Source: an uncultured Pelagibacteraceae bacterium
GTDB lineage: Bacteria > Pseudomonadota > Alphaproteobacteria > Pelagibacterales > Pelagibacteraceae
DNA length: 64,000 nucleotides
Reading direction: 5' to 3'
Assembly: GCA_902558705.1 (NCBI GenBank)
Contig: CACEEW010000001.1
Coordinates: forward strand, 105,892 to 169,891
Shown in pieces: positions 1 to 16,357 of the stretch (position 1 is the first letter of the stretch; the number at the start of each line of letters is the position of its first letter). Position numbers and translations under genes: made by a program. The notes beneath the pieces were generated by a model. The model made no database searches. It was not told where the DNA came from and saw nothing but the letters and a program-made list of their open reading frames with translations.

Positions 1-883
1 GCAAATAGAGTCTTGATCCAGCAATACAACTTTGCCCACTAGCACCAAATATTCCTGCAGTAATTCCATTTAAAGCATTTTCTTGATCAGCATCATCAAA
101 TACTACGACAGGACTTTTTCCACCAAGTTCTAAGCTTACTTGTGATAAATTTTCAGCAGAATTTTTTACAATATGTTTAGCTGTTTCAGGGCCACCTGTG
201 AATGCAATTCTTTCCACAAGATTATGTGTAGTTAGTGCTTTACCACATGGCTCTCCTAATCCTGTAATTATATTAATTACTCCTTTGGGTATTCCAGTTT
301 TTTCTATTAATTTTGCAAATTCTAAAAGGGTTACTGGTGCAAGTTCCGATGCTTTTATTACCACTGTATTACCCATAGCAAGTGCAGGAGCAAGCTTTAC
401 AGCAGTCAATAGCATTTGAGAATTCCAAGGAATAATTGCTGCTACAACACCAATCGGTATTCTTGTTGTAGTAACTTGCATGTCAGGTTTATCAATTGGA
501 ACTAAAGTCCCCTCAACTTTGTCAGCCAGTCCAGCAAAATAATCATAATATTCTGCAATATAATTAGCCTGAGTTTTTGTTTCTCTATAAATTTTTCCAG
601 TATCTATAGTTTCTATTTTACCTAGATGCTCTGCATTTTCTCTTAGTTGATCTGCAATTAATCTTAAGTATTTTGCTCTATCTCTTGGGTGAAGTATTGA
701 CCAACTATTTTCAAAAGCATTTTGTGCTGATTGAACAGCTATATCTACATCTTTTTCATTAGCTTCAGGAACTGTTGCCCATACCTCATTATTTTCAGGA
801 TTCAGAGTTTGTATTTTTTTTCCTGATGAGGAATCTACCCACTCACCATTTATATACATTTTGAAATTCTGAATTTTTGGCAT
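1..883 (-). CDS. Aldehyde dehydrogenase, N-terminal part (cut by window edge)
   Basis: NAD(P)-dependent oxidation of an aldehyde to a carboxylic acid. The ORF is absent from the track because it runs off the left edge; about 294 N-terminal residues are visible, starting MPKIQNFKMYINGEWVDS. Family hallmarks are the IPWNSQ segment, the KASELAP cofactor loop, the AFTGG turn, the LELGGKSP motif with the general-base Glu, and GQSC with the catalytic Cys close to the edge. It starts directly after the stop of the alpha/beta hydrolase gene, so it is the last visible gene of a four-gene minus-strand operon with a flavin monooxygenase and a DUF1185 protein. It probably oxidises an aldehyde made by the upstream enzymes. 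The substrate cannot be read from sequence; the closest resemblance is to the betaine-aldehyde / hydroxymuconic-semialdehyde branch. Confidence 0.9.
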   Translation of the reverse strand, partial: MPKIQNFKMYINGEWVDSSSGKKIQTLNPENNEVWATVPEANEKDVDIAVQSAQNAFENSWSILHPRDRAKYLRLIADQLRENAEHLGKIETIDTGKIYRETKTQANYIAEYYDYFAGLADKVEGTLVPIDKPDMQVTTTRIPIGVVAAIIPWNSQMLLTAVKLAPALAMGNTVVIKASELAPVTLLEFAKLIEKTGIPKGVINIITGLGEPCGKALTTHNLVERIAFTGGPETAKHIVKNSAENLSQVSLELGGKSPVVVFDDADQENALNGITAGIFGASGQSCIAGSRLYL

Positions 884-1666
884 TTAATTATTTATAAAAT
901 TCTTGATATTTATATTAACATCATCTGCGCACTCTATACTACAAAGATGTTTTCCATTTTTAATTTCAATAAAATTTGAATTAATTAGGTCTTTAGCTAA
1001 TTCTTGAGACATTTTTGGAGTAGATCCAGTGTCATTAGATCCAGTCATTACCAAAGTCTTTGAAGTAATATTTTTGATTACTAATGAATTATCGTTGTGA
1101 TTAGCAAATAATTCGTAAGCTTTAAGAAAGTTTTTATGATCCTCGGGTTCTTTAGTTAGTATTTTCATAAACAAATCGTAAGTCGAAGGATTGTTTTCTA
1201 GATACTTGTCACTAAACCATCTTTTTAGCGCTTGTTTTGATATTGGTTTATTTAGTTTAGCTTGGTTATATCTATCTAAAACTAGTGCTTTTTCAGCCTC
1301 AGATCTTTTATAAGTTGTCCCGATTAATATAAGTTTATTAATTTTATCTTGGTAATTTGAGGCAAAGTCTAAGGCTATTAAAGATCCAAGAGAGAACCCA
1401 ACAAGATTAATCTTATCTACTTGAAGATTATTTAGAATTTCATCAAGTTGTTTTGAAAAATCATTAAGAGTTAACTTTTCTTTTTTGCAAGGTGTTTTTC
1501 CATGACCTAACAGATCATATGTAATTATAGAGAATTCGTTTAATTTACTAATTTGTGATTGCCACATTTGATGATCAAGGCCAACCCCATGAATAAAAAC
1601 CAAAGGAGTAGTATTTCTTTTTAAAAAAAAATAGTGATTGTGATTTGAGTCAAAATTATCAGACAT
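884..1666 (-). CDS. Alpha/beta hydrolase, enol-lactonase/ester hydrolase type
   Basis: Predicted cytoplasmic serine hydrolase of 260 residues. The oxyanion segment FIHGVGLDHQMW, the nucleophile elbow GFSLGS, the acid in GSNDTGS and the catalytic His in NGKHLCS are all in place, with a cap region between strands 6 and 7. The overall look is that of 3-oxoadipate enol-lactonase and related C-C or ester hydrolases. The ORF track starts at a TTG (1669); I prefer the ATG three bases later (1666), 4 nt after the DUF1185 stop. It abuts the aldehyde dehydrogenase start with no gap. In the operon it would hydrolyse an ester, lactone or ring-opened product of the luciferase-like monooxygenase. There is no signal peptide. 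The family call is solid; the substrate is unknown. Confidence 0.88.
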   Translation of the reverse strand: MSDNFDSNHNHYFFLKRNTTPLVFIHGVGLDHQMWQSQISKLNEFSIITYDLLGHGKTPCKKEKLTLNDFSKQLDEILNNLQVDKINLVGFSLGSLIALDFASNYQDKINKLILIGTTYKRSEAEKALVLDRYNQAKLNKPISKQALKRWFSDKYLENNPSTYDLFMKILTKEPEDHKNFLKAYELFANHNDNSLVIKNITSKTLVMTGSNDTGSTPKMSQELAKDLINSNFIEIKNGKHLCSIECADDVNINIKNFINN

Positions 1667-1670
1667 CAAA

Positions 1671-2258
1671 TTATTTTGGATCTAAACCCATTTCTTTCAT
1701 ATCTTGATAGCGATCTCCAGTTCTAGCGTGCGCTCTACTACTTGAAGCACCTCCAATTGCAATTACTATTTCATCATCAAATGGTGCGTCATGAATAGTA
1801 AACTCATGAGTTAGATAATAAGGTCTTAAACCTGAGTCAGTTTTATGCATCATTGGTATAGACATTTTTGAGCCTGCAGGTCCTCTAGTATTTGTAAAAC
1901 TTAAATAAGATGATCCTCCAACAGCATCTCTGAATTTATTTCCAAATCTTAAGGTATGAATGAATGCTGATGCATGTTCAATTTCACCGTTTAAGCCAAC
2001 AGTTCCTGCTTTACCATAAGCCAAAATTTTTTCTGATGATCCAATTTCTTTTATTAATTCTGGAACTAAAATATCACCGAGTTTTGGAGCTAAATCTAAA
2101 ATGACCGGTTTTAAATCTTCCACAAAACCTTTTCCAGCCCAAGGATTTTTTAACACAGCGGCTACTGATACTAATAAGACTGGTTCTTTAGCTTTCTTTC
2201 CACCCTCAATGAAAGTTTTATCAACAAACTTTGTAAACTTTCTAAGCTCTAGATCCAT
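1671..2258 (-). CDS. DUF1185 / 'amino acid synthesis' family protein
   Basis: A 195-residue protein recognised as the amino-acid-synthesis family (DUF1185), whose biochemical role is not established. Gly-rich segments GKAGTVGLNGEIEHASAF and IGGASSSRAHARTGDR, and the segment GGSSYLSFTNTRGPAGS, are the recognisable conserved parts. No membrane segment or signal peptide is visible. Its start codon shares one base with the stop of the LLM monooxygenase gene (TAATG), which suggests translational coupling, and it ends 4 nt before the hydrolase gene. The coupling suggests it works with the flavin monooxygenase, either as an isomerase/hydrolase on its product or as a partner subunit; that is inference from position only. 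Confidence 0.8.
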   Translation of the reverse strand: MDLELRKFTKFVDKTFIEGGKKAKEPVLLVSVAAVLKNPWAGKGFVEDLKPVILDLAPKLGDILVPELIKEIGSSEKILAYGKAGTVGLNGEIEHASAFIHTLRFGNKFRDAVGGSSYLSFTNTRGPAGSKMSIPMMHKTDSGLRPYYLTHEFTIHDAPFDDEIVIAIGGASSSRAHARTGDRYQDMKEMGLDPK

Positions 2259-3424
2259 TAACTTGCTTTTTCTACATTAGAAGAGTCTAAATTAATTTTT
2301 GGAATTACCTCGTCATTAAATAATTTGATGCTTCTCATACAAGCTTTATGATCTATACCGGGGAAGTTAGACCAAACTTGTAGATTTTGTAAATTTAATT
2401 CAGATTTTAATTCATTAATCTTATTAACAACATACTCAGGAGTACCAAATAATAAATTTCTTTTATGAAGAAAATCATAGTTTAGTAAATCTAATTTATG
2501 TTTTGTCACAGGAAGTTCTTCGCCAGGATCCATGTGATTTCCTAAGCCTCTCCAATGACAAACCCATTTCATATAATTAATGATATGTTTACCAGCCATT
2601 TTTTCTGCTTCTTCCATAGTTTCAGCAACAAACATATCTCTTACTAAAGATATACCTTCTCCTAATTGAACATCTCTATTTTCAGCCTTTGATTTTGCAT
2701 CTCTATAAATTTCAAATCTTTTCTTTAAAGCCTTAACAGTTGGTATCCACATAATTGTATTTAAACCATTCTGTGCTGCCCACTCAATTGATCTAGCGCC
2801 ATCAACAACTTGCCAAATAGGAGGATGTGGTGATTGTTTTGGTTTTGGAACGATACTTATTTTTTTTATTTCATTTGTTTTTGTATCTAAAAACTTTTCA
2901 CTTGGCGGGCTCATATCATGTTGCCAAATAAAGTTTGGTGAGGGATAAGTATAGAATTCACCTTTGTGACTAAAAAACTCTTCTGTCCAAGCTTTTTTCA
3001 TAATCGTTAAAGATTCTTCAAATAGTCTGAAATTTTTAGCTTGGTCTTTAAGATCAGCCTCTTTATTCATATTTATTGCCTCTCTTCCATAAATCCCTCG
3101 GCCAATACCTACATCAACTCTGCCACCTGATAATTGATCTAGTAAAGCTATGTCTTCTGCTAATCTTATTGGATTATGAAATGTAATGACATTGCAGGCT
3201 TGTCCAATTCTGATTTGTTTAGTTCTTGCTGCTGCATCAACACCCATCATTAGAGGATTTGTACAAGACTCCATTCCTTCATGATTAAAATGATGCTCAG
3301 TATACCAAATTGAATCCCAATTATTTTCATCACAAAAGGTTGTGATCTCTTTAGTTTCATTAAGTAGTTGATTATATGGCTTGTGATTCCAATTCGTGGT
3401 GTTGCAAAAATATCCAAATTTCAT
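2258..3424 (-). CDS. LLM-class flavin-dependent oxidoreductase (bacterial luciferase-like monooxygenase)
   Basis: A 388-residue member of the luciferase-like TIM-barrel superfamily, which uses reduced FMN and O2 to oxygenate substrates. Family features include the N-terminal MKFGYFCNTTNW strand, DSIWYTEHHFNHEG, GQACNVITFHNPIRLAEDIALLDQLSGGR, DVGIGRGIYGRE, and a C-terminal FGTPEYVVNKINEL segment. First gene of the minus-strand operon, with an unusually good Shine-Dalgarno sequence (AAGGAGG, 5 nt from the ATG). No flavin reductase is visible beside it, so reduced flavin must come from elsewhere. With the hydrolase and aldehyde dehydrogenase downstream, Baeyer-Villiger-like oxygenation, ring or ester opening and aldehyde oxidation is a reasonable but unproven route. 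Substrate unknown. Confidence 0.9.
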   Translation of the reverse strand: MKFGYFCNTTNWNHKPYNQLLNETKEITTFCDENNWDSIWYTEHHFNHEGMESCTNPLMMGVDAAARTKQIRIGQACNVITFHNPIRLAEDIALLDQLSGGRVDVGIGRGIYGREAINMNKEADLKDQAKNFRLFEESLTIMKKAWTEEFFSHKGEFYTYPSPNFIWQHDMSPPSEKFLDTKTNEIKKISIVPKPKQSPHPPIWQVVDGARSIEWAAQNGLNTIMWIPTVKALKKRFEIYRDAKSKAENRDVQLGEGISLVRDMFVAETMEEAEKMAGKHIINYMKWVCHWRGLGNHMDPGEELPVTKHKLDLLNYDFLHKRNLLFGTPEYVVNKINELKSELNLQNLQVWSNFPGIDHKACMRSIKLFNDEVIPKINLDSSNVEKAS

Positions 3425-3429: not shown

Positions 3430-3436
3430 CCTCCTT
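3430..3436 (-). promoter_or_regulatory. Strong Shine-Dalgarno of the LLM operon
   Basis: AAGGAGG on the minus strand, 5 nt before the ATG at 3424. Most genes in the window have weak or no Shine-Dalgarno, so this supports the chosen start and suggests efficient translation of the first gene. The rest of the 239-bp gap upstream shows no clear promoter to me. Confidence 0.8.
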
Positions 3437-3663: not shown

Positions 3664-5154
3664 TTACAAATTTGGTATCATATCAAATGCTAGTACTATT
3701 CGGTTTTCCTCTGATTTAAATGGAATTGTGTAGTGAAGTAAGGAAGATGGAAATAGACACAAGCTTCCAGTTACCACATCTATACTTTTTTTATTTTCAT
3801 TTTTATTTTCATTTTCATCAATACATACAACAAGATTACCACTTTCTAACTCTGATTTTTGAGGTACGTTTATGTAGATACTGCCACTAAGCCAACCTAA
3901 ATCATGCATATGAGCAGATAATTTACCACCCTTTTTCATACTGATTAGCCAACCATTCAGATTGTAGTTAGTTGGCCAATTTTTTATAAAACCTTCTTTA
4001 CTATCTTTAAAGTACAATCGATATTTTTCTATTTCTATTTTAATAATTTTTTGAATTTCATTTGTATCAAAGTCTCTATTTGCAAATAAATTACCAGCAG
4101 TTTGATAGCCATTTGTTATAAGTTTTTGTACTCTGCTAGAAATTGAATCATCTTTTAAAATATTATTTACACATTTCACAATCACATTTTTAAAGTCATA
4201 TTTTTCATTTAAATTTTTCTGTAAAACATAATCAAGTGGATTATTACAAAAAGGATTTTCTTTTTTAACCCCATACTTAACTTCAGAACGAGAACAAATT
4301 GAACCAATGACCGCATTCATCTTGCCTTCATTAATTATAGAGTCTAATTCTTCAAATAAAATAGATTGATTATTCATTTTATATAAATTTGTTAACAAAC
4401 TATTTGATGCTCTTATATCACCAGGCTTGATTTGAATTGCTTTTTTTAAATAATTTTCTGCTAGATGATACTCTCCACTTTCGTGTAATAGTTGTCCAAG
4501 ATTATAATATGCGTCACCATAGTTAGGATTAATCTCAATTGCTTTTTTATAACAATTTTTTGCTTTCTGATATTCTCCAAGTTCTTGAAATATAATGCCC
4601 AAACTATTATGTGTCTCTTGCTCGTTAGGATTAATCTCAATTACTTTTTTATAACAAATTTTTGCTTTTTGAAGTTCTCCTGAATCTTTATATATTACTC
4701 CAAGATTATAATGTGCCTTTGCATTATTAGAATTGATTTTAATTGCTTTTTCATAACAATCTTTTGCTTTCTGATTTTCTCCTAAATCTTTAAATATTAT
4801 GCCAAGATTAGTTTGGATAATTGTATTATTGGGTTGAATATTATCTGCTTTTTCATAACAACTTTTTGCTTTTTGATATTCTTTTAATTCTTTAAATATT
4901 ATCCCAAGATTATAATAAGCATCAGCAGAATTAGGATCAATTTCAACTGCTTTTTCATAATATTCTTTTGCTTTTTGATAATCTTTTAAATTTATAAAAA
5001 TAACTGCAATATTTTTAAGAGCCTGTGAATGATTGGGATCAATTTTTAAAACTTGATTGTAAAGCTCTTTAGCAACGTCAGTTTTACCTTCCTGATGATT
5101 TTTAACAGCAATGTTAAAGGTTTCTTGTATTGTTAAACTTTTATTTATACTCAT
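3664..5154 (-). CDS. TPR protein with C-terminal 2OG-Fe(II) oxygenase-like domain
   Basis: A 496-residue two-part protein. Residues about 9-245 hold roughly seven tetratricopeptide repeats of 34 residues (for example YYNLGIIFKELKEYQKAKSC), a protein-interaction superhelix. The C-terminal part (about 270-496) resembles the putative 2OG-Fe(II) oxygenase family: GGKLSAHMHDLGWLSGSIYI gives candidate iron ligands, and SSLLHYTIPF followed by ENRIVLAFDM gives a second His and the 2OG-binding end. The likely role is hydroxylation of a peptide or small molecule recruited by the TPR part; the real target is unknown. There is no signal peptide. It stands alone, divergent from eutA, with its own hairpin downstream. 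The plus-strand ORF at 4492-4683 is a shadow of the repeats. Confidence 0.8.
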   Translation of the reverse strand: MSINKSLTIQETFNIAVKNHQEGKTDVAKELYNQVLKIDPNHSQALKNIAVIFINLKDYQKAKEYYEKAVEIDPNSADAYYNLGIIFKELKEYQKAKSCYEKADNIQPNNTIIQTNLGIIFKDLGENQKAKDCYEKAIKINSNNAKAHYNLGVIYKDSGELQKAKICYKKVIEINPNEQETHNSLGIIFQELGEYQKAKNCYKKAIEINPNYGDAYYNLGQLLHESGEYHLAENYLKKAIQIKPGDIRASNSLLTNLYKMNNQSILFEELDSIINEGKMNAVIGSICSRSEVKYGVKKENPFCNNPLDYVLQKNLNEKYDFKNVIVKCVNNILKDDSISSRVQKLITNGYQTAGNLFANRDFDTNEIQKIIKIEIEKYRLYFKDSKEGFIKNWPTNYNLNGWLISMKKGGKLSAHMHDLGWLSGSIYINVPQKSELESGNLVVCIDENENKNENKKSIDVVTGSLCLFPSSLLHYTIPFKSEENRIVLAFDMIPNL

Positions 5155-5293: not shown

Positions 5294-6037
5294 ATGAAAC
5301 TAACTAAAATAGCACCAAAATTTATTGAAAAACATAACCCAAGAATAGGATTAATTACTTTAGCAAGTGACTTTAGGATTGAAAAAGATTTTAACAATTT
5401 AATATATGGTAAAGACATAGATTTATTTTGTAACAGAATTCAAAGTTACAATCCATTAACAAATGAAACATTAAAAAAAATGGCGGATGATATTCCTAAA
5501 GTTGTTAAGAACATCTTACCTGATCAAAAAATTGATTGTATAGCTTATGGATGTACCTCAGGAACAATTGCTGCAGGATATGCATCTATTTATGAAAAAG
5601 TTAATTCAACAAAACCAAATACAAAAGTTACAACACCAATTACATCTGCAATTAATGCATTAAAAGCACTAAAGATAAATAAATTATCTATATTCACACC
5701 TTATACAGATGAAATAAATCAGTCAGTAATTAATTATTTTAAAAAAGAAAATATAGAAATTTCTGGACTAACTTATTTTGATATAGCCTCAGATTTAGAT
5801 ATAGGAAAAGTTGATCCAGATCATTTATTTGATGTTTTAAGTAAAATAGAATTATTAAATAGTGATGCATTGTTTGTTTCTTGTACTGCGCTACCTGTAT
5901 TATCAATTATTAAAGATCTGGAAAACAAAATGAATAAAATTGTTTTATCAAGTAATCAAACTTTGATTTGGGATACACTCAAACAAATTGATTTTAAAAG
6001 TAAAGTTGAAGGTTATGGTGAATTATTTAATAATTAG
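5294..6037 (+). CDS. eutA: Asp/Glu racemase-family protein, ectoine utilisation EutA type
   Basis: A 247-residue member of the aspartate/glutamate racemase and maleate isomerase superfamily. The two active-site Cys lie where expected, in AYGCTSGT and FVSCTALP, each near the start of a domain half. The resemblance is to EutA proteins of ectoine/hydroxyectoine clusters; maleate isomerase and arylmalonate decarboxylase are the alternatives. It sits 3 nt before the ectoine-hydrolase-like gene, which is the main reason for the EutA call; EutA is thought to help convert 5-hydroxyectoine. No clear Shine-Dalgarno; a promoter candidate lies just upstream. EutB and EutC homologues do not accompany it here. 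Confidence 0.72.
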   Translation: MKLTKIAPKFIEKHNPRIGLITLASDFRIEKDFNNLIYGKDIDLFCNRIQSYNPLTNETLKKMADDIPKVVKNILPDQKIDCIAYGCTSGTIAAGYASIYEKVNSTKPNTKVTTPITSAINALKALKINKLSIFTPYTDEINQSVINYFKKENIEISGLTYFDIASDLDIGKVDPDHLFDVLSKIELLNSDALFVSCTALPVLSIIKDLENKMNKIVLSSNQTLIWDTLKQIDFKSKVEGYGELFNN

Positions 6038-6040
6038 ACT

Positions 6041-7210
6041 ATGAATTTTACTAGTGAAGAATACAAATCAAGATTAAAAAAAGTCCAAGCTTCAATGCAG
6101 AAACAAGGTATTGAACTTTTAATTTCACAAGATCCATCTAATATGAATTATTTAACAGGCTATGACGCTTGGTCATTTTATTATGCACAATGTGTAATAG
6201 TACATGTAAATGCCAATGAACCAATTTGTTTTGTTAGAAATCAAGATGCAGGAGGTGCATATATAAAAACCTATCTAAAAGATGAAAATATAATTAAGTA
6301 TCATGAAAAATATATTCATACATGGCCGTTACACCCTTACGATGCTTTAGTAGATCTTATTAAAGAAAGAAAGTGGGAAAAACTCTCAGTAGGACTAGAA
6401 ATGGATAGTCATTATTTCACCGCTTATTGTTATGAGAAAATTAAACAAGGGTTACCAAATGCAAAAATTTTGGATTGTGAACGGTTAGTTAATTGGGTTA
6501 GATTTGTAAAATCTGATACAGAAATAAAATTTATGAAAGCTGCATCTCAAATTTCTCAACTAGGAATGAAAAAGGCTTTTGAAGTTATCAGTCCAGGAGT
6601 AAGACAATGTGATGCAGTTTCAGAAATTTACACTACATTAATAAAAGGTACTCCTGATTTTGGAGGAGATTATTCATCAATAGTTCCAATGATACCAACT
6701 GGAAAAGGTACATCTGCATCACATTTAACGTGGTCAGAAGATAAATTTGTTGAGGGAGAAGCTACAATTATTGAATTATCAGGTGTTAATAAAAAATATC
6801 ACTGTCCTATGGCTCGTACAGTTCTACTAGGAAAACCAGACCAAAAAAAAATTGATACTATGAAGAAGACTAATGAAGCGCTTCAAGCAGGAATAGATCT
6901 AATTAAAGCAGGAAATACTGCTGATGATGTTGCGCAAGCTTTTTGGAAAGTGTTAGACAAATATGGAATAGAAAAAACTTCCAGAACTGGATATTCCATT
7001 GGTATAGGATATCCACCTGATTGGGGCGAGCATACTTTAAATATTTCTAAAGGTGATATGACAGTTTTACAACCTAATGTTACTTTTCATATGATTGCAG
7101 TTATGCAATTTGGAAATTGGGGAGTTGAAGCATCAGAAGCAATTAGAGTTACAGATAAGGGTTATGAATTATTTTGTAACTTTTCTAAAGAACTACATGT
7201 TAAAAGCTAG
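6041..7210 (+). CDS. doeA: Ectoine hydrolase, M24/creatinase-like (EutD/DoeA type)
   Basis: A 389-residue pita-bread (M24) enzyme predicted to open the ectoine ring to N-acetyl-diaminobutyrate. The N-terminal creatinase domain (DPSNMNYLTGYDAWSFY) is followed by the catalytic domain. Where true M24 peptidases carry metal-binding Asp residues this protein has ELSGVNKKYHCPMARTVLLG, the creatinase-like, metal-free pattern of ectoine hydrolases, and SIGIGYPPDWGEHTLNISKG is a further hallmark. It is 3 nt from eutA and 56 nt before the transporter ATPase gene. The next pathway enzyme, the DoeB/EutE deacetylase, is not in the window. A generic Xaa-Pro dipeptidase or another creatinase-like amidohydrolase is the alternative. 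Confidence 0.78.
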   Translation: MNFTSEEYKSRLKKVQASMQKQGIELLISQDPSNMNYLTGYDAWSFYYAQCVIVHVNANEPICFVRNQDAGGAYIKTYLKDENIIKYHEKYIHTWPLHPYDALVDLIKERKWEKLSVGLEMDSHYFTAYCYEKIKQGLPNAKILDCERLVNWVRFVKSDTEIKFMKAASQISQLGMKKAFEVISPGVRQCDAVSEIYTTLIKGTPDFGGDYSSIVPMIPTGKGTSASHLTWSEDKFVEGEATIIELSGVNKKYHCPMARTVLLGKPDQKKIDTMKKTNEALQAGIDLIKAGNTADDVAQAFWKVLDKYGIEKTSRTGYSIGIGYPPDWGEHTLNISKGDMTVLQPNVTFHMIAVMQFGNWGVEASEAIRVTDKGYELFCNFSKELHVKS

Positions 7211-7266
7211 TTATTAGGGGTTGATATTTACACTTACAAATGTTTTAAATTCGTAATTTTATTTCA

Positions 7267-8346
7267 ATGAATAAAGAATTTGTAAAATTTGATAAAGTAG
7301 ACAAAAGTTATGACGGTAAAATACTTGTCGTAAAAGATCTTCAATTAGATATTGAAGAAGGAGAGTTCGTTACTATGTTAGGACCCTCTGGTTCTGGTAA
7401 GACTACTTGTTTAATGATGTTAGCAGGATTTGAAACACCAACCCATGGTGAAATATATTTAGACGGAAAAGCTATATCAAGTATTCCACCTCATAAAAGA
7501 GGTATCGGAATGGTATTTCAAAATTATGCTTTGTTTCCACATATGACAGTTTATGAAAATTTAGCGTTTCCTTTAAGAGTTAGAAAAATTCCTAAGGATG
7601 AAGCAGATAAAAAAATTGATAAAGCACTATCAATGGTTTCACTACAAGGATTTGCTCAAAGAATGCCAGGTCAATTGTCTGGGGGACAGCAACAAAGAGT
7701 TGCAGTAGCGAGGTCACTAGTATTTGATCCACAATTAGTTTTAATGGATGAACCCTTGGGCGCTTTAGATAAAAATTTAAGAGAGAGTATGCAGTATGAA
7801 ATTAAACATATTCATGAAAGTATTGGGGTGACAGTTGTTTATGTAACTCATGATCAAAGTGAAGCGCTTACAATGTCAAATCGTATTGCAGTTTTCAATG
7901 ATGGTAAAGTTCAACAACTCTCAAGTCCTGATGAACTGTATGAAAAACCAGTTAATTCATTTGTTGCAGAATTTATTGGAGAAAATAATACTTTCGTTGG
8001 AGAAGTGTCAGATATTTCTGGTGGAAAATGTAAAGTGAAGCTAGCTAATGCAGAAATATTAGCAAATCCTATTTCTGTTAAAGGAAAAGGCGATAAAACA
8101 ACTGTATCTTTAAGACCTGAGAGAGCTTTAATTAATCCAAGTGACAAGATGGATAATATCCATAAAGGGAAAATTGAAGAAATTATTTATCATGGTGACC
8201 ATACTAGAGTAAGAATTAATTTATTAGGAAATTCTGAATTTATTCTCAAGGTACCAAATAGTTCATCTAATCTTGATATTAAATTAGGTAATGAAATCAA
8301 AATTGGTTGGAATAGTGAAGATGCTAGAGCATTAGACCCAAAATAA
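7267..8346 (+). CDS. ABC transporter ATP-binding protein, PotA type
   Basis: A 359-residue ATPase of the polyamine/opine/iron import class. Walker A GPSGSGKTT, Q-loop FQNYALF, signature LSGGQQQR, Walker B LVLMDEP and the switch His in YVTHDQ are all present. The C-terminal 110 residues form the TOBE regulatory domain (SLRPERALINP). It energises the permeases encoded at 9642 and 10900. It follows the ectoine genes in the same direction after 56 nt, so co-transcription is likely. Substrate class is set by the binding protein downstream, not by this gene. Confidence 0.92.
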   Translation: MNKEFVKFDKVDKSYDGKILVVKDLQLDIEEGEFVTMLGPSGSGKTTCLMMLAGFETPTHGEIYLDGKAISSIPPHKRGIGMVFQNYALFPHMTVYENLAFPLRVRKIPKDEADKKIDKALSMVSLQGFAQRMPGQLSGGQQQRVAVARSLVFDPQLVLMDEPLGALDKNLRESMQYEIKHIHESIGVTVVYVTHDQSEALTMSNRIAVFNDGKVQQLSSPDELYEKPVNSFVAEFIGENNTFVGEVSDISGGKCKVKLANAEILANPISVKGKGDKTTVSLRPERALINPSDKMDNIHKGKIEEIIYHGDHTRVRINLLGNSEFILKVPNSSSNLDIKLGNEIKIGWNSEDARALDPK

Positions 8347-8384
8347 ACACCAATTACATCTTGTATAACTTACAAAAAGGGCTG

Positions 8385-8413
8385 TTGACTCTCATTATCG
8401 ATCTTGTTGTAAT
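8385..8413 (+). promoter_or_regulatory. Candidate promoter before the binding-protein gene
   Basis: TTGACT, 17-nt spacer and TGTAAT in the 102-bp gap before the binding-protein gene: 5/6 matches in both boxes at ideal spacing. A CGTTTAAACG palindrome and GGAGG precede the ATG. With the terminator at 9608 this would make the binding-protein gene a separately transcribed unit. Confidence 0.55.
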
Positions 8414-8448
8414 CTATTTTTATAAAAAAACGTTTAAACGGAGGAAAA

Positions 8449-9570
8449 ATGAAAACACTTAGTAAATTATTACTAGCCATTTCTTTTGCTATCTCTGTAA
8501 CTACTTCAGCATTTGCAGTAACTGCAGTGTCTTGGGGTGGAGCTTACACTGAGTCTCAAAAGTTAGGTTATGGTGATCCTACTGGTAAAGCCCTTGGTAT
8601 AACTATCAACTGGGTTGATTATTCAGGTGGATTGTCTGAGATCAAAGCACAAAAAGAAGCTGGCAAAATTACGTGGGATATAATCGACGTATTTGCAATG
8701 GATACTATCAATGGATGTGATGAAGGATTATTTGTTGAATTTGATTTTGACAAAGACTTCCCACCTGCACCAGATGGAACTCCTGCAAGTAAAGATTTCT
8801 TTACTGCAATGCCAAGTAAATGTGCTGTAGGAAATATTTTATATTCTTGGAACTACGCTTATAACAAAAATAATGTTAAAGGTACTCCAAAGACTATCAA
8901 AGATTTCTTTAACACTAAAAAATTCCCTGGAAAAAGAGCTATCTACAAAGGCGCTTTAACAAACTTAGAAATCGCTTTAGCTGCAGATGGAATTAAACCA
9001 GGAAAAGGTGGAGCAAAAATCTATAAAGCTTTAAATACTGAAAAAGGTGTTGATAGAGCTATGAACAAGATCAAAGAGTTATGTACAGATCCAAAGGGCG
9101 GATGTGTATTTTGGTCTGCAGGTGCTCAACCACCAGAACTATTAATGAGCGGTGAAGTTGTTATGGCAACTGGTTGGAATGGTAGATTCTTTAACGCTAT
9201 CGTTGGAGAAGGTGCACCACTAGTTCAAGTATGGGATGGACAAGGTCTTGACTACGAGTACTTCGTTCAAGTTAAGGGTGGACCAAACGATGCTAATGGT
9301 ATGGCTAAGAAAGCTTTAGCTATGATGACTAGCACAGAAATGTTAGCAGGAAGTGCAAAATATATTGCATACGCTCCTTGGAGAAAATCTTCTATAGCTA
9401 TTATGGAAGCAGGAGAGCCGTGGTATAAAGATGGTAAAACTAATATGGTACCACAAATGCCAACTGCACCAGCTAACACTAAAAACTACTTCTTAGTAGA
9501 TCCACTTTACTGGGCTGACAATGGTACAGAGCTTGGTGAAAAATGGGAAGCTATGAAAGCTGGTCTATAA
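8449..9570 (+). CDS. Periplasmic substrate-binding protein, PotD/polyamine family
   Basis: A 373-residue exported binding protein. The first 23 residues form a Sec signal peptide ending SAFA before VTAVSWGG. The mature part begins with the family's first beta strand (SWGGAYTESQ) and carries WDIIDVFAMDT, YSWNYAYN and ATGWNGRF ligand-site segments. The family binds spermidine, putrescine and other cationic amines, and some members bind opines or modified amino acids. Codon choice is more GC-rich than in the neighbours (many GCT, GGT and AAG codons), as expected for a highly expressed protein. It has its own promoter candidate, a GGAGG ribosome site and a strong terminator, all supporting high expression. 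Polyamine is the default substrate guess; ectoine is possible given the upstream genes. Confidence 0.88.
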   Translation: MKTLSKLLLAISFAISVTTSAFAVTAVSWGGAYTESQKLGYGDPTGKALGITINWVDYSGGLSEIKAQKEAGKITWDIIDVFAMDTINGCDEGLFVEFDFDKDFPPAPDGTPASKDFFTAMPSKCAVGNILYSWNYAYNKNNVKGTPKTIKDFFNTKKFPGKRAIYKGALTNLEIALAADGIKPGKGGAKIYKALNTEKGVDRAMNKIKELCTDPKGGCVFWSAGAQPPELLMSGEVVMATGWNGRFFNAIVGEGAPLVQVWDGQGLDYEYFVQVKGGPNDANGMAKKALAMMTSTEMLAGSAKYIAYAPWRKSSIAIMEAGEPWYKDGKTNMVPQMPTAPANTKNYFLVDPLYWADNGTELGEKWEAMKAGL

Positions 9571-9607
9571 TTTAAGTTTTATTAAACTTAATTATATATT
9601 ATAATTT

Positions 9608-9640
9608 AAGGGCGGTTATTTGATAACCGCCCTTTTTATT
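9608..9640 (+). terminator. Strong intrinsic terminator inside the transporter operon
   Basis: AAGGGCGGTTAT pairs perfectly with ATAACCGCCCTT (12 bp) around a 3-nt loop and is followed by a T tract, 37 nt after the binding-protein stop. The next gene starts within a few bases of the end. Partial read-through would give much more binding protein than permease. Confidence 0.88.
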
Positions 9641-9641
9641 T

Positions 9642-10895
9642 ATGAGCTCAGAAATAAAACAAATTTTAACAACTGATGGAATTCCTTTAGAGGTAAGTCT
9701 TAGAAAAGCTGAAAGAAGAAATAAGATTAAAGCCTTCCTACTTGTAGCACCCTTGCTCTTGTTTATAATTATCACTTATGTTTTTCCCATTGGAGACATG
9801 CTTATGAGAAGTGTGGATGATAAGATGGTCACTGAAATGCTTCCTAAAACTTTTAAAGCAATGGAAAAATGGGATGGTAAAGAATTACCAGATGAAGAAG
9901 TTTTTGCAGCCTTTCATTCAGATTTTATAAAGTTAGTAGATGAAAAACGTGAGGGAAAATTATCTACACAACTAAATTATACAAAGAACGGATTTAAAAG
10001 TATTATTAAAAAATTAAGGAGAAAATCTAAATCTTTCGAAGAAGGAAACTACAAAGAACAAATAATGGCCGTTCACAAAAGATGGGCCAATGTTGAATAT
10101 TGGCAAGCAATTAAAAGAAGAGCTCCAGCATACACTGGTCAGAAATATCTAAAGGGTATAGATATGTTTAAAAATGAGAATGGAGAAATAGTAAGTGTTC
10201 CTGAAGATAGACGGATCCATAGAGTTCTATGGTTAAGAACTTTAGAAATTGCATTTTTTGTTACAGTATTTTGTTTTTTAATGGCATACCCAATTGCTCA
10301 TTTGTTAGCTACTTTACCTATGAAGTATAGTAACCTGCTAATGATCTGCGTACTTCTTCCATTTTGGACATCATTACTTGTTAGAACTGCTAGTTGGATG
10401 ATATTGTTGCAACAACAGGGTTTGGTTAATGATTTCTTTGTTGGTATAGGATTAGTTGCTGATGATAATAGACCTGAAATGATGTTCAATAAAACAGGTA
10501 GCTATGTTGCGATGACACAGATTTTGTTACCTTTTATGGTTTTGCCACTTTATAGTGTGATGAAAACTATCTCCCCAAGTTTGATGAGAGCTGGAAAGTC
10601 GTTAGGTGGAACACCTTTTGTAGCTTTTTGGAAAGTTTATTTTCCATTAACTATTCCAGGTATTGGAGCCGGTTGTTTATTAGTTTTTATATTAGCTATA
10701 GGTTATTATATAACTCCAGCCTTAGTTGGAGGTGCCTCTGGTACTTTAATCAGTAATCAAATTGCATTTCATATGAAGAGTACACTTGATTGGAGCTTTG
10801 CATCGGCAATGGGTTTAATGTTATTGACTGGAGTTTTAGCGATTTACTGGGTGTATAATAAATTAGTTGGAATAGATAATATTAAATTAGGATAA
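9642..10895 (+). CDS. ABC transporter permease, PotB type with enlarged first periplasmic loop
   Basis: A 417-residue inner-membrane permease. One membrane helix (about 29-50) is followed by a hydrophilic stretch to about residue 185, then by the usual helices from TLEIAFFVTVFCFLMAYPIA on. The EAA-loop region that contacts the ATPase is SLMRAGKSLGGTPFVAFWKVYFPLTIPG. PotB proteins are usually near 285-300 residues, so the 130-residue charged insertion between helices 1 and 2 is the odd point. It starts right after a terminator, with no visible Shine-Dalgarno, and is 4 nt from the second permease gene. Confidence 0.9.
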   Translation: MSSEIKQILTTDGIPLEVSLRKAERRNKIKAFLLVAPLLLFIIITYVFPIGDMLMRSVDDKMVTEMLPKTFKAMEKWDGKELPDEEVFAAFHSDFIKLVDEKREGKLSTQLNYTKNGFKSIIKKLRRKSKSFEEGNYKEQIMAVHKRWANVEYWQAIKRRAPAYTGQKYLKGIDMFKNENGEIVSVPEDRRIHRVLWLRTLEIAFFVTVFCFLMAYPIAHLLATLPMKYSNLLMICVLLPFWTSLLVRTASWMILLQQQGLVNDFFVGIGLVADDNRPEMMFNKTGSYVAMTQILLPFMVLPLYSVMKTISPSLMRAGKSLGGTPFVAFWKVYFPLTIPGIGAGCLLVFILAIGYYITPALVGGASGTLISNQIAFHMKSTLDWSFASAMGLMLLTGVLAIYWVYNKLVGIDNIKLG

Positions 10896-10899
10896 AAGA

Positions 10900-11754
10900 A
10901 TGGCCTTACCAAAATATACAGAACCACATTATAGAATTTGGCATTATGTTTATTTGACTATTTGTGCAGCAGTTTTCTTTTTTCTTATTGCTCCATTATT
11001 TGTAATTTTCCCATTATCTTTCAACGCTGAAGAATTTTTAGTTTTTTCCGATGGAATGAAACGTCTAGATCCTGATGCGTTTTCATTAAGATGGTATAAG
11101 GACATGATTTATGGAACCAAAAATCCTTGGGGTTTAGCTACAAAAAATAGTTTTATCATTGCAATTTTTGCAACAATTGGTTCAGTTATTTTGGGAACTG
11201 TTGCTGCTTTAGGCTTAAGCAGCAGACACATGCCTTACAAGGGTTTAATTATGGCAGTTTTAATATCTCCAATGATTGTTCCATTAATTATTTCTGGTGT
11301 AGCAATATTTTTCTTTATGGCTAAAGCAGGTTTGGCCGCAACTCATTTAGGTATAATTCTTGCTCATATTATATTAGGTACACCATTTGTAGTAATAACT
11401 GTTACTGCAACTTTATCAGGATTTGACCATAGTGTAACAAGAGCAGCAGCAAGTCTTGGTAGTAATCCAGTTAATACTTTTATGAAAATTACTTTACCAT
11501 TAATTCTACCTGGCGTTATATCTGGAGGATTATTTGCTTTTGTAACTTCATTTGATGAAGTTGTGGTGGTATTGTTCTTAGCTGGGTTAGAAAATACTAC
11601 AATCCCTATTCAAATGTGGACAGGGTTAAGAGAACAGTTGAGCCCAACCATTCTTGCCGTTGCAACTTGTCTAATTATCTTATCAACATTAATATTAGTT
11701 ACCGCTGAACTCTTAAGAAGAAGATCTGAGAGACTCAGAGGTATTAACAGATAG
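10900..11754 (+). CDS. ABC transporter permease, PotC type
   Basis: A 284-residue inner-membrane permease with about six hydrophobic helices, starting at YVYLTICAAVFFFLIAPLFV. The EAA-type coupling loop reads TRAAASLGSNPVNTFMKITLPLILPG, the standard contact with the ATPase. It pairs with the upstream permease to form the channel of the PotABCD-type importer. It lies 4 nt after the first permease and 12 nt before the acyl-CoA dehydrogenase/hydratase gene, so the three are probably one transcript. Length is normal for the family. Confidence 0.92.
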   Translation: MALPKYTEPHYRIWHYVYLTICAAVFFFLIAPLFVIFPLSFNAEEFLVFSDGMKRLDPDAFSLRWYKDMIYGTKNPWGLATKNSFIIAIFATIGSVILGTVAALGLSSRHMPYKGLIMAVLISPMIVPLIISGVAIFFFMAKAGLAATHLGIILAHIILGTPFVVITVTATLSGFDHSVTRAAASLGSNPVNTFMKITLPLILPGVISGGLFAFVTSFDEVVVVLFLAGLENTTIPIQMWTGLREQLSPTILAVATCLIILSTLILVTAELLRRRSERLRGINR

Positions 11755-11766
11755 TAAGATCGCTAC

Positions 11767-13989
11767 ATGAAGATTAAGAATGTAGTAGTGATTGGTTCAG
11801 GAACTATGGGAAGCGGGATAGCTGCTCATTTATGTAATGCAAATGTTCCAGTTACTTTATTAGATTTAAAAACTGAAATTAGTGAAAAAGCAAGAGATAG
11901 AATTCATAAATCCAGACCACCTTTATTACTTGATAGATCAAAAATTAATAATATTAAAGTTGGAAATATAGATGACAATTTTGATGTTGTAAAAGATGCT
12001 GATTGGGTTGTTGAAGCAGTTGTGGAAAGAATTGACATCAAACATCAAATTTATGAAAAAATATTTAAAGTAAGAAAAGAAGGAGCGATTGTTTCTTCAA
12101 ATACTTCATCTATTCCAATTAAAGTCTTATCCGAACACTTAAGTGATAAAGAAAAAAAAGATTTTTGTATTACTCACTTTTTTAACCCTGTGAGATATAT
12201 GGGCCTTCTAGAAATCGTTAAAAATGAAAATAATGATCTAAACAAAATAAACGAATTAAAAGAATTTTGTGAAATAGAGCTGGGAAAAGGTGCAATTGTT
12301 TGTAATGATACTCCTGGCTTTTTAGGAAACAGAGTAGGTGTTTATGCTATGCAAATAGCTATGACTGAAGCTTTTAAAATGAAATTGTCAGTCGAAGAAG
12401 CAGATGCAATTTTTGGAAGACCAATGGGAATTCCAAAAACAGGAGTATTTGGTCTTTATGATTTAATAGGTATTGATTTAATGGCTGATGTTTTAAAAAG
12501 TTTTATTAAAGAGTTGCCTGAGACAGATAAGTTTCATGAGGTTGCAAAAGAAATTCCATTAGTAAAAAAATTAATTGATACTGGCTATACTGGAAGAAAA
12601 GGTAAAGGTGGATTTTACAGAATTAACAAAACTGGAACTAATAAAGTTATGGAAGCTATCAATCTTGCGACTGGTGATTATTCACCTACCAAAAAGATTG
12701 ATATGAAATCAGATAAAGTAGATCTTAAAGCACTAACTGATAGAGAAGATAAATATGGTGAATATGCTTGGTCTGTAATATCTAAAATAATTAAATATGC
12801 GTCTTCATTAGTGCCAGGAATTACTAATGAATTTAATGATATTGATGAAGCAATGAGGCTCGGCTTCAATTGGGCTAAAGGTCCTTTCGAAATGCTTGAG
12901 GAAATAGGGGTTAAAAATTTCTTTAATAAAGTTGATGATTTTAGTGGCAATAGTTTCTTAGAAAATTTATCCAAAACTCAAAATGAGGATTTTTATGGTG
13001 AAAGACAAAAATATACAAATATTGAAACTTTAGGCAAAGTTAAGAAAATGGCCTCAAGATTGGATGGAAACGATTCAGCAAAAATTTATAAGTTTAGTGA
13101 CTATAACATTGTTGAGTTTACTACTAAAGCTAATGCTTTAGATTATGACTCTATGGATGCTCTTAAAAAAGCAACTGATAAACCTCTAATAATAATTAAT
13201 GAAAGTATGCAGTTTTCTGCTGGTGTTAACTTAACCTACACAATGAAATTTGCTGATAAAAAAGATTTTAAATCAATTGAAAAATTCATTAAATATTTCC
13301 AAGAAACATGTAAGCATTTAAAATATTCTAAACATCCAGTAATTTCAGCTCCTTCAGGATTAACATTAGGTGGTGGATTTGAAGTAATGGTTCAAAGTAA
13401 TTTTGTTGCCTCGCACACAAATATAGTAGTTGGATTAGTTGAAACTATTGTTGGTTTGATTCCCGCAGGTGGAGGATGTAAGGAAATGTTAGCTAGATGG
13501 CTGGATACTAACGAAGCCAAAAAAGATCCTAATTTTGCTCCACTTAAAGTGTTTGATATTATTGGATATGGAAAGACAGCCACTTCGCCAGTTGAAGCAG
13601 AACCTATGAAATATTTGAGGCCAAATGATAAAAAGATAATGAATAGGAATAGTTTATTAGAAGTTTCAAAAAAAATTCTTAGTGAAAATAAAGATTTTAA
13701 AGCACCTGAAGAACATAAATTTAATCTGCCTGGAAAAGCAGTAAGAGGAGAAATGGATAAAATTATAGAAAAACTTTATAATGATAAAGTTATATTAGAA
13801 CATGGGGTTGAGGTTGCAAAAGAGTTAGCTCATGTTTTGAGTGGAGGCGATACTACAATTGACAAAACTTTATCTGAAGATGATTTATTTGAATTGGAGC
13901 TTGATGCTTTTATGAGATTAATTGAAACTCAAAAAACTCAAGATAGAATAAAACATACTCTTGCAACAGGTAAACCTTTAGTTAACTAA
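11767..13989 (+). CDS. 3-hydroxyacyl-CoA dehydrogenase / enoyl-CoA hydratase fusion
   Basis: A 740-residue bifunctional beta-oxidation-type enzyme with the dehydrogenase half first and the crotonase half last, the reverse of E. coli FadB. The NAD-binding motif GSGTMGSGIAAHL lies at residues 9-21; the catalytic His is in THFFNPVRYMGLLE; a second dehydrogenase C-domain follows (GFNWAKGPFEMLEEIG). The crotonase part (about 460-680) has TLGGGFEVMV and a Glu in VETIVGLIPAGGG. It starts 12 nt after a transporter permease gene, so it may act on a CoA ester from the imported compound, or simply be a housekeeping gene that ended up there. Its last four codons (TTAGTTAACTAA) are shared with the convergent cyclophilin gene. 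Confidence 0.9.
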   Translation: MKIKNVVVIGSGTMGSGIAAHLCNANVPVTLLDLKTEISEKARDRIHKSRPPLLLDRSKINNIKVGNIDDNFDVVKDADWVVEAVVERIDIKHQIYEKIFKVRKEGAIVSSNTSSIPIKVLSEHLSDKEKKDFCITHFFNPVRYMGLLEIVKNENNDLNKINELKEFCEIELGKGAIVCNDTPGFLGNRVGVYAMQIAMTEAFKMKLSVEEADAIFGRPMGIPKTGVFGLYDLIGIDLMADVLKSFIKELPETDKFHEVAKEIPLVKKLIDTGYTGRKGKGGFYRINKTGTNKVMEAINLATGDYSPTKKIDMKSDKVDLKALTDREDKYGEYAWSVISKIIKYASSLVPGITNEFNDIDEAMRLGFNWAKGPFEMLEEIGVKNFFNKVDDFSGNSFLENLSKTQNEDFYGERQKYTNIETLGKVKKMASRLDGNDSAKIYKFSDYNIVEFTTKANALDYDSMDALKKATDKPLIIINESMQFSAGVNLTYTMKFADKKDFKSIEKFIKYFQETCKHLKYSKHPVISAPSGLTLGGGFEVMVQSNFVASHTNIVVGLVETIVGLIPAGGGCKEMLARWLDTNEAKKDPNFAPLKVFDIIGYGKTATSPVEAEPMKYLRPNDKKIMNRNSLLEVSKKILSENKDFKAPEEHKFNLPGKAVRGEMDKIIEKLYNDKVILEHGVEVAKELAHVLSGGDTTIDKTLSEDDLFELELDAFMRLIETQKTQDRIKHTLATGKPLVN

Positions 13990-14625
13990 CATTCTTAAAG
14001 AATTTATAAAGTCAGGCCTTAATACATATTGAGATTTATCTAAATATTTTATTTTTTTCAATGCTTCTAATCCATATATTACCTTTCCTATTGGGGTATA
14101 TTCAGTTTCATATAATGGCTCATCTCTGAGGATTATAAAAAATTGACTATCCTCAGTGTTATATTTTTGACCTCTTGCAAGACCAATACTACCTTTATCA
14201 AAGTTAAATGGGGTATCAACCTCTGAATTGATTGTTCCTAATCCAGATTTCCCAGTTCCAATTTTTCCATAATCTAAATTACCCTTTTTGCCAAACTCTA
14301 AATCCCCAGCCTGAACAAGTGTGTCTTTAATTACTCTATGAAATGCAACATCATCATAGGATTTCGTGTTAATTAATTGTTTAAATCTTTTCACAGCATT
14401 GGGTGAAATGTTAGGATAAAGTTCAATTATTACATTTCCACAGGCAACATTCAATATTGCGATATTTTTGGGATTATCAAAAGTAATTTTTAGAGGGTCA
14501 TAATTTTTTACAAATAAACATTTATCTTTTATCAAAAAGAAAGAACCAAAAAAGAATACTGCTAAAGTAACTATAAATATCAAAATCGCTTTTTCAGATT
14601 TTGATGCCTTAATTTTTTCAATCAT
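13978..14625 (-). CDS. Membrane-anchored cyclophilin-type peptidyl-prolyl isomerase
   Basis: A 215-residue protein with one N-terminal membrane helix (about 14-31) and a periplasmic cyclophilin domain. Family residues are visible in AFHRVIKDTLVQAGD and in SQFFIILRDEPLY; the VQAGD replaces the more usual IQGGD. Cis-trans isomerisation of prolyl bonds during folding of exported proteins is the expected job. Its start overlaps the stop of the HEXXH-protein gene by 4 nt (ATGA type), so the two are translationally coupled and may work together in the envelope. It ends in -LVN, and so does the convergent gene, through a shared 12-bp palindrome. Confidence 0.85.
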   Translation of the reverse strand: MIEKIKASKSEKAILIFIVTLAVFFFGSFFLIKDKCLFVKNYDPLKITFDNPKNIAILNVACGNVIIELYPNISPNAVKRFKQLINTKSYDDVAFHRVIKDTLVQAGDLEFGKKGNLDYGKIGTGKSGLGTINSEVDTPFNFDKGSIGLARGQKYNTEDSQFFIILRDEPLYETEYTPIGKVIYGLEALKKIKYLDKSQYVLRPDFINSLRMLVN

Positions 14626-15344
14626 AAAATGAAATTTTCATCTATTTTTAAAAGATTAGTTTTAATAAACTTAATTTTCTTTTCTAAAATTGGATCAAGT
14701 CTATCTAAGTTTAATCCAATCATTAAATGAGAAAATACTTCAGCCATATCCTCAGATGCAGTTGATCTTGAATATTCAGTTAAAAAACCATTAGTATTTT
14801 TGTAAGTATCTAAGCCTAATTTATCTGTGCAGGTGGAGCATTCAGCATATTCAAATTCTTCAACATTAAATTTAGACCAGACATCTTCATCAAATAATTG
14901 TTTAAAACTATCATTTATAATATGGAACACTTCATGGTGAATTACACGTTCAAAATAATCTTTGTTAAATTTGATATCTAAGATTAATGTTTTCATAACA
15001 TGGTCAGGAATTCCAGCAGTATTAATTTTTGATATGGATAAATCCTCACACATGACTATGTATTTAAGATTAATTTTTTTGAGAAATTCTTGATTATATC
15101 TATCTAAATTTTTTTTAATTATTTTGTATTTTTGATCAAGAATTTTCTTTTCAGAATTATAACAATTTATATTTTTTTCAATACCAAGAGTAAAAGGTTG
15201 TTTGGCAAATAAGTATCTAAGTTTGTTTGAAGTTTTAATATCATAAATTTCTAAATTTGGAATTTTTATAAGATTATAAATAGTATCAGCTTGAGTTTGA
15301 GTAAAAATAAATAAAGATAGTATAATTAATCTAATTAAGCTCAT
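14622..15344 (-). CDS. Exported putative zinc metallopeptidase (HEXXH)
   Basis: A 240-residue protein I cannot place in a named family. The first 19 or so residues look like a signal peptide (SLIRLIILSLFIFTQTQA). The segment VIHHEVFHIINDSF contains HEVFH, a HEXXH zinc motif in a helical, hydrophobic setting, and a downstream Glu-rich stretch (TASEDMAEVFSHLMIG) could supply the third ligand in the gluzincin manner. Two Cys in CSTCTDK may form a disulfide or bind metal. It is followed, with a 4-nt overlap, by the cyclophilin gene. I infer a periplasmic protease or putative zinc-binding peptidase; activity is not proven. Confidence 0.6.
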   Translation of the reverse strand: MSLIRLIILSLFIFTQTQADTIYNLIKIPNLEIYDIKTSNKLRYLFAKQPFTLGIEKNINCYNSEKKILDQKYKIIKKNLDRYNQEFLKKINLKYIVMCEDLSISKINTAGIPDHVMKTLILDIKFNKDYFERVIHHEVFHIINDSFKQLFDEDVWSKFNVEEFEYAECSTCTDKLGLDTYKNTNGFLTEYSRSTASEDMAEVFSHLMIGLNLDRLDPILEKKIKFIKTNLLKIDENFIL

Positions 15345-15397
15345 AAATTTACATATAGAAGATATTCCAATTTAGATGAATGTGATACAATTTTACT

Positions 15398-16357
15398 GTG
15401 AAAAAAAAAAGAAATAAAGTTCCAATCCAACCAGTAAGTGGAACTAAAGTACCACGGTTTGCTGGCCCTTCAACATTTGCAAGATTACCTGAGCTTAGAG
15501 ATGTAGAGAGTTGTGATGTTGCAATTGTTGGGATTCCATTTGATGCTGGAACCAGTTACAGACCAGGTGCAAGATTTGGACCTCAAAGTATTAGACAAGC
15601 TTCCAGACACTTAAGAACAAATTACCATCCAAGTTATGATGTTGAACCTTTCAAAGTACAACAGGTAGCTGATGCAGGAGATATCACTTGCAACCCATTT
15701 AATATTGAAGAGGCAATTAAACAGATAGAGGTGGGAGCTGAAGAATTATTGAATAAAGTTGGAGGAATTATAAGTCTTGGTGGTGACCACACAATTGCAT
15801 TTCCTTTGTTAAAAGCTGTTAATAAAATTAACAATGGTCCAGTAGCTTTAGTGCATTTTGATGCTCACCTAGATACTTGGGATACTTATTTTGGTGCACC
15901 TTACACTCACGGAACACCTTTTAGAAGAGCAAGGGAAGAAAATTTATTTTTAGATGATGCTTCAATGCATGTGGGTATAAGAGGACCTTTGTACAGTAGA
16001 GATGATATCAAAAATGATGAAAGTTTTGGATTTAAGATTATTCATTGTGATGAGTTTCAAACTCAAGGAACTGATAAAATTGCTGAAAGAATTAAAAAAA
16101 GAGTTGGAGATAACCCTTTATATTTATCTATTGATATAGATGTATTAGATCCTGCTTTTGCCCCTGGAACTGGTACACCAGAAATTGCTGGAATGACCTC
16201 AAGAGAAATGGTTAACACTATAAGAGGTTTATCAGGTTTAAATTTAATTTCAGCTGATGTTGTTGAGGTTTCACCAGCTTATGATCATGCTGAAGTAACC
16301 TCTCTTGCTGCAGCAACAATAGTTTATGAATTAACTAATTTGTTTGCAAAAAAATAA
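15398..16357 (+). CDS. speB: Agmatinase-family ureohydrolase (agmatinase/guanidinobutyrase)
   Basis: A 319-residue manganese ureohydrolase that removes urea from a guanidino compound. The metal ligands are visible in SLGGDHT, HFDAHLDTWDT and LSIDIDVLDP, in the correct order. Agmatine to putrescine is the standard reaction; guanidinobutyrate or guanidinopropionate are alternatives that cannot be separated by eye. It starts with GTG, after a run of A bases that encodes a Lys-rich N-terminus. It lies 20 nt before an aldehyde dehydrogenase gene in the same direction and a few kb from a polyamine-type importer, so import, urea removal and oxidation of an amine-derived aldehyde may be linked. No separate amine oxidase or aminotransferase is next to it. 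Confidence 0.88.
   Translation: MKKKRNKVPIQPVSGTKVPRFAGPSTFARLPELRDVESCDVAIVGIPFDAGTSYRPGARFGPQSIRQASRHLRTNYHPSYDVEPFKVQQVADAGDITCNPFNIEEAIKQIEVGAEELLNKVGGIISLGGDHTIAFPLLKAVNKINNGPVALVHFDAHLDTWDTYFGAPYTHGTPFRRAREENLFLDDASMHVGIRGPLYSRDDIKNDESFGFKIIHCDEFQTQGTDKIAERIKKRVGDNPLYLSIDIDVLDPAFAPGTGTPEIAGMTSREMVNTIRGLSGLNLISADVVEVSPAYDHAEVTSLAAATIVYELTNLFAKK

Follow-up and report, generated by a model that had tools for sequence, protein, structure and literature searches.

A streamlined trigonelline-like gene cassette in SAR11 bacteria as a probable route for dissolved pyridinium betaines

The tgnABCDEF genes of Acinetobacter baylyi ADP1, which Perchat reportedly described in 2018, are said to encode a two-component flavin oxygenase (TgnA/TgnB), an aldehyde dehydrogenase (ALDH), a hydrolase, a succinate-semialdehyde dehydrogenase (SSADH) and a conserved hypothetical protein. 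TgnA/TgnB open the ring of trigonelline, a small pyridine-ring osmolyte (PMC8269262), TgnB is listed among luciferase-like enzymes (PMC11354265), and TgnF, a DUF1185 homologue, stimulates the TgnE-dependent oxidation of succinic semialdehyde in trigonelline degradation (PMC7913881). Here, we analyzed a 64,000-nucleotide stretch of a SAR11 (Pelagibacter) genome (the window; positions 105892–169891 of contig 1 in a genome of 986,325 bases and 41 contigs), at whose left edge lies a minus-strand operon encoding a luciferase-like monooxygenase (LLM), a DUF1185 protein, an alpha/beta hydrolase and an ALDH. The original prediction recognized no catabolic route of this composition; the functions are nevertheless those of the trigonelline catabolism set, where DUF1185 is TgnF (PMC7913881, PMC8269262, PMC11354265). 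We propose that the operon is probably a streamlined variant of a tgn-type ring-cleavage cassette that acts on a pyridinium betaine in dissolved form, with trigonelline and homarine as the likeliest substrates.

Gene content and conservation of the SAR11 operon

The first gene of the operon encodes the LLM (2258..3424, minus strand, as for all four genes; 388 aa), a flavin monooxygenase of the bacterial-luciferase family (PF00296, Bac_luciferase, 153 bits), and a Shine–Dalgarno sequence, AAGGAGG (3430..3436, same strand), lies a short way before its ATG. It is followed by the gene for the TgnF-like DUF1185 protein (1671..2258, 195 aa), which matched AA_synth (PF06684) over its full length at 213.4 bits against a Pfam gathering cut-off of 27, then by those for a TgnD-like, PcaD-like alpha/beta hydrolase (884..1666, 260 aa; PF00561, Abhydrolase_1, 94 bits) and a TgnC-like ALDH (1..883, open reading frame 2–883; PF00171, Aldedh). 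The hydrolase open reading frame was listed as 884–1669 from a TTG, directly after which comes the ATG at 1666. The ALDH gene is truncated by the window edge; complete, it encodes 493 aa (L002:13294–14775), its 3′ part lying to the left of the window. The LLM and DUF1185 genes overlap by 1 nt in TAATG, the DUF1185 stop is followed by the hydrolase ATG after 4 nt, and hydrolase and ALDH adjoin with 0 nt between them (TAA-ATG). A complete Ser-Asp-His triad is present in the hydrolase (nucleophile S92 in GFSLG, plus D212 and H240), and the ALDH carries the catalytic motifs ELGGK and GQSC. The four genes are as originally described. A linked transporter of the kind that the original prediction asked for lies to the left of position 1: an EamA-type permease is encoded 4 nt downstream of the complete ALDH and is followed on the same strand by a Liv-type periplasmic binding protein. 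EamA is missing from this position in many SAR11 relatives. The supposed rarity of AAGGAGG in the window did not hold, as six copies were found against 6.0 expected by chance; we therefore dropped rarity as evidence, and only the conservation of the motif at the LLM start counts.

Scanning a genome collection with the LLM yielded 80 retained loci, all titled Pelagibacteraceae, Pelagibacterales or Pelagibacter. The order LLM–DUF1185–hydrolase–ALDH was intact in 72 of them, seven end at a contig edge, and one is frameshifted in DUF1185; gene-order conservation is well beyond chance expectation. AAGGAGG before the LLM gene was retained in 73 of the 80 loci, and the stop–start overlap of LLM and DUF1185 was conserved too, TAATG and TAGTG being the common junctions. 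Among 61 SAR11 genomes, 19 encode a PF06684 protein, each in single copy, and wherever the contig extends far enough it is closely preceded by an LLM gene, which is adjacent or separated from it by one or two genes. A 566-aa thiamine diphosphate (ThDP) enzyme, similar to Xsc and acetolactate synthase and below all cut-offs, is encoded between LLM and DUF1185 in several SAR11 relatives (L119:4818–6518 and L126:5761–7458, with equivalents in L120–L124, L127 and L128); L121 combines it with a small methyltransferase-like gene. The pathway may thus exist in a second version, of which this insertion is the sign.

Comparison with trigonelline-type cassettes

Matching cassettes comprising DUF1185, hydrolase, flavin reductase, LLM and ALDH were found on plasmid records of Leisingera, Thioclava, Chimaeribacter, Klebsiella, Pantoea, Acinetobacter baumannii, Sinorhizobium meliloti, Rhizobium, Mesorhizobium ciceri, Agrobacterium, Caballeronia and Aminobacter; we count 13 named organisms with these functions in a cassette. 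The Parasedimentitalea cassette had no flavin reductase nearby, and that of Azospirillum was not resolved by automatic gene calling. Among the matches listed, DUF1185 and the cassette LLM lie ~2–6 kb apart in the 14 records common to both match lists. In S. meliloti 2011, the cassette occupies 430–441 kb of pSymA, together with GntR, an ABC transporter and SSADH. Since loss of pSymA abolishes growth of S. meliloti on trigonelline (PMC4207669), this cassette is a candidate for the trigonelline genes lost with the plasmid, which ties the cassette to trigonelline, albeit not gene by gene. It also lies (L200:136–22673) 8–12 kb from nodL and noeB on this symbiotic plasmid. Betaine-type transporters adjoin some cassettes (BCCT in one, ProXWV in another); cytosine permease, BCCT or Pot ABC transporters neighbor tgn-type cassettes, in contrast to the EamA and Liv-type proteins of the SAR11 operon. 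Kept across SAR11 and recurring as a cassette in distant bacteria, the gene set supports the originally proposed single pathway of oxygenation, ring or ester opening and aldehyde oxidation, probably of an N-heterocycle.

Tight clustering of LLM, ALDH, hydrolase and DUF1185 is common to SAR11, to A. baylyi ADP1 and to the apparent homologues of the tgn set in A. baumannii, on S. meliloti pSymA, in enterobacteria and in roseobacters. In place of ADP1 TgnB, the comparison used the LLMs encoded in the cassettes of Acinetobacter and S. meliloti. SAR11 DUF1185 is 52–61% identical to cassette DUF1185s (52–58% to the named cassettes and 61% to that of the alphaproteobacterium G259) and fell within the cassette clade in a phylogenetic tree (support 100/100), apart from divergent DUF1185s. 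Similarly, the SAR11 ALDH (41–55% identical to cassette ALDHs) was placed within the cassette ALDH clade (100/99), separate from SSADHs; these two proteins are of the TgnF and TgnC types. The hydrolase shares its triad, an RW motif and several residues with all or nearly all cassette hydrolases. Its closest solved structure is the 3-oxoadipate enol-lactonase PcaD (2xua), in which the RW motif and triad also occur. We rejected the conserved Arg and Trp residues as proof of a shared substrate, since 2xua too has the RW motif and, among these residues, R132 at the least. The hydrolase scored below the PcaD equivalog TIGR02427 (124.5 bits; cut-off 255.85) and the RutD equivalog (76.8 bits; cut-off 238.5). 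The Rut pyrimidine pathway likewise uses an LLM oxygenase (RutA) and an alpha/beta hydrolase (RutD) for N-heterocycle ring opening, but the SAR11 operon encodes none of RutB, RutC, RutE and RutF and has ALDH and DUF1185 instead.

G259, which belongs to another family, carries a five-gene operon (L184) in the order flavin reductase (PF01613)–LLM–DUF1185–hydrolase–ALDH. Its LLM and DUF1185 are 55% and 61% identical to those of SAR11, and its hydrolase is 32% identical to the SAR11 enzyme and 39% to that of Leisingera. G259 and SAR11 therefore share the LLM lineage and the order of the last four genes, whereas only G259 retains the reductase. The G259 operon is preceded (L184:9774–13480) by genes for a Rieske ring-hydroxylating oxygenase, a LysR regulator and a DAO-type FAD oxidoreductase, another difference from SAR11; these genes suggest an N-demethylation step upstream. 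G259 bridges the SAR11 operon and the tgn-type cassette. As its full five-gene operon combines a SAR11-type LLM with a PF01613 reductase, it appears that a common module exchanged its oxygenase and that Pelagibacter subsequently lost, or never possessed, the reductase.

Several observations weigh against a tgn-type function for the SAR11 operon. The SAR11 LLM is 27–32% identical to cassette LLMs and lies outside their clade with a 100/100 split, and its closer relatives beyond SAR11 and G259 sit in unrelated gene contexts. Identity of the hydrolase to cassette hydrolases is low (25–33%), and likeness to tgn was measured on cassette proteins of organisms other than ADP1. A PF01613 flavin reductase, the counterpart of TgnA, was found neither in the SAR11 operon nor anywhere in five Pelagibacter genomes (the host G000, G004, the 100% complete G012, G022 and G255), although two SAR11 genomes of another family carry a PF01613 protein elsewhere. 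Of the alternative reductase families, PF03358 has no member in G000 and two in G012, and PF00881 none in either. The operon also lacks SSADH (TgnE) and holds a single ALDH; the best SSADH-like paralogue elsewhere in the host genome is 42% identical and scored 501.8 bits against a cut-off of 646. Finally, no published tgn step accounts for the ThDP enzyme inserted in some SAR11 operons. Because the LLM falls outside the cassette clade, the flavin reductase is missing and the operon has no SSADH, we do not class the operon as a tgn member. Rather, we call it a tgn-like module with a swapped oxygenase and without a PF01613 reductase, a variant of a pathway type already known. We hold with moderate confidence that it functions like tgn.

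Candidate substrates and alternative readings

From the observed gene content, order, coupling and conservation, and from the DUF1185 and ALDH clades, we infer a substrate, a bond cleaved, an order of steps and a role for DUF1185. The LLM, with reduced flavin and O2, would cleave an N-methylpyridinium ring to give an N-formyl (N-methylformamido) enamide bearing an aldehyde or hydroxybutyrolactone. A reductase whose gene lies elsewhere would supply the reduced flavin. The ALDH would oxidize the semialdehyde or hydroxylactone to a dicarboxylate, and the PcaD-like hydrolase would cleave the N-formyl enamide, taking off the N-formyl/N-methyl part and releasing formate. DUF1185, as a TgnF-like protein, may help an unstable lactone, enamide or imine step. 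With trigonelline as substrate, the hydrolase step would also yield methylamine, CO2 and succinate semialdehyde; with homarine, the same chemistry would lead towards N-methylglutamate.

The two substrates are sub-cases of this pyridinium-betaine proposal and do not add to its probability. A plain trigonelline pathway, with tgn chemistry, a non-orthologous LLM replacing TgnB, and the reductase and SSADH encoded singly in other parts of the genome, is possible, and we hold it tentatively. Three of the four genes appear to be tgn-type, an SSADH-like ALDH is encoded elsewhere in the genome, the window contains methylamine pathway genes, and trigonelline is present in seawater (PMC8269262). It is, however, scarce there, with a mean of 0.07–0.14 nM (PMC8269262), and the different LLM lineage and the ThDP-enzyme variant of relatives also count against this substrate. 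Homarine (N-methylpicolinate), an isomer of trigonelline, averaged 1.85–14.3 nM in the same waters, more than 10 times trigonelline in the transect studied (PMC8269262). TgnA/TgnB are thought to be sterically unable to act on homarine (PMC8269262), so another LLM would be needed, and homarine catabolism reportedly involves Mgd, N-methylglutamate dehydrogenase (PMC13390433). On paper the module chemistry fits a route in which the LLM would cleave C5–C6, the ALDH would oxidize the product and the hydrolase would deformylate it on the way to N-methylglutamate, but the operon encodes no imine reductase, and we consider homarine alone a rather doubtful assignment. Also unlikely is that the LLM acts as a Baeyer–Villiger-type oxygenase on a non-pyridine substrate, with DUF1185, hydrolase and ALDH re-used in an unrelated catabolic route: LLM relatives beyond the cassette in CoA-type or transport contexts, a nearly full-length match to diketocamphane monooxygenase among the LLM's PDB hits and the ThDP enzyme of relatives point that way, but DUF1185 and ALDH still fall in the cassette clades and G259 retains the full five-gene set with a SAR11-type LLM.

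The DUF1185 family and the genomic surroundings

Crystal structures exist for two DUF1185 homologues (2qtp and 3byq); a structure predicted from SAR11 sequences had a mean pLDDT of 39.7. Amino-acid metabolism was proposed for the family from fold and context in a 2010 structure paper (PMC2954203), and the family member HcdD belongs to a hydroxycoumarin operon (PMC7913881). DUF1185 was originally seen as a clue that might define function, but it does not define the route, because PF06684 is broader: divergent copies occur without LLM, often in tandem. The link to LLM thus fails for the divergent members seen, whereas it stands for the subfamily that is at least 52% identical, in which every copy examined lies near an LLM. 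Tandem pairs in the roseobacters Sulfitobacter (L198:5658–9148) and Sagittula (L199:5110–8585) are accompanied by UPF0280, 6-hydroxynicotinate reductase, xanthine-dehydrogenase-type subunits and a Rieske oxygenase, apparently an uncharacterized pyridine-ring route. These clusters resemble the SAR11 operon in pairing DUF1185 with apparent pyridine-ring catabolism but differ in having no LLM or PcaD-like hydrolase nearby and DUF1185s ~35% identical or less. Another divergent DUF1185 adjoins an amidohydrolase. The contexts seen fit ring catabolism better than amino-acid metabolism, and the retention of DUF1185 beside the oxygenase in SAR11, where the operon has no SSADH, makes it less likely that the protein serves only to assist SSADH.

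A more far-reaching version of the pyridinium-betaine proposal, which we regard as speculative and on the improbable side, would have an independently recruited LLM without a dedicated reductase cleave homarine or another marine pyridinium betaine in a module that has its DUF1185, ALDH and hydrolase in common with trigonelline catabolism. A second SAR11 form would add the ThDP enzyme, and DUF1185 would assist pyridine-ring cleavage routes in general, by handling a lactone, enamide or imine, and would be neither an SSADH accessory nor an amino-acid synthesis protein.

Between the operon and its divergent neighbor cluster lies a gene (3664–5154) for a tetratricopeptide-repeat protein with a C-terminal 2-oxoglutarate–Fe(II) oxygenase domain, which was not seen at that place in the 80 relatives save for a 56% similar stretch in L047. 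The neighbor cluster (5294–17811) encodes an EutA-like protein (184.7 bits; cut-off 318), an M24 peptidase close to ectoine hydrolase (469 bits; cut-off 613), a PotA/D/B/C-type ABC transporter, a fused 3HCDH–enoyl-CoA hydratase, and arginase-family and ALDH proteins; most Pelagibacter loci keep the first part of this cluster next to the operon. About 10 kb from the operon, two Liv-type ABC clusters flank a P5CR-like gene and a gene for CsiD of the glutarate hydroxylase family (L002:5460–6371). CsiD was found in 22 of 61 relatives, some of which have DUF1185 and some not. Although CsiD and the Liv cluster lie ~10 kb away in several genomes, CsiD is also present in many genomes that lack DUF1185, and we dropped both as partners in the pathway for want of a specific link. 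Farther into the window (29035–41645), a methylamine/trimethylamine N-oxide (TMAO) block comprises two type III glutamine synthetase-like genes, glutamate-synthase-like subunits that are probably N-methylglutamate synthase, an ammonium transporter and a TMAO demethylase-like gene that narrowly misses its cut-off (1080 bits against 1100). These genes are a plausible sink for methylamine from trigonelline. Type III glutamine synthetase, a proxy for methylamine use, was dropped as a marker, being widespread in relatives with and without DUF1185.

The lack of SSADH in an operon that keeps DUF1185, together with the missing flavin reductase, makes the role of DUF1185 and the supply of reduced flavin to the LLM testable questions. 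No heterotrophs of the surface ocean are more abundant than SAR11 bacteria. Phytoplankton contain pyridinium betaines, homarine among them, as abundant osmolytes (PMC8269262). If our proposal is true, the conserved SAR11 operon would be a gene marker for pyridinium-betaine flux.

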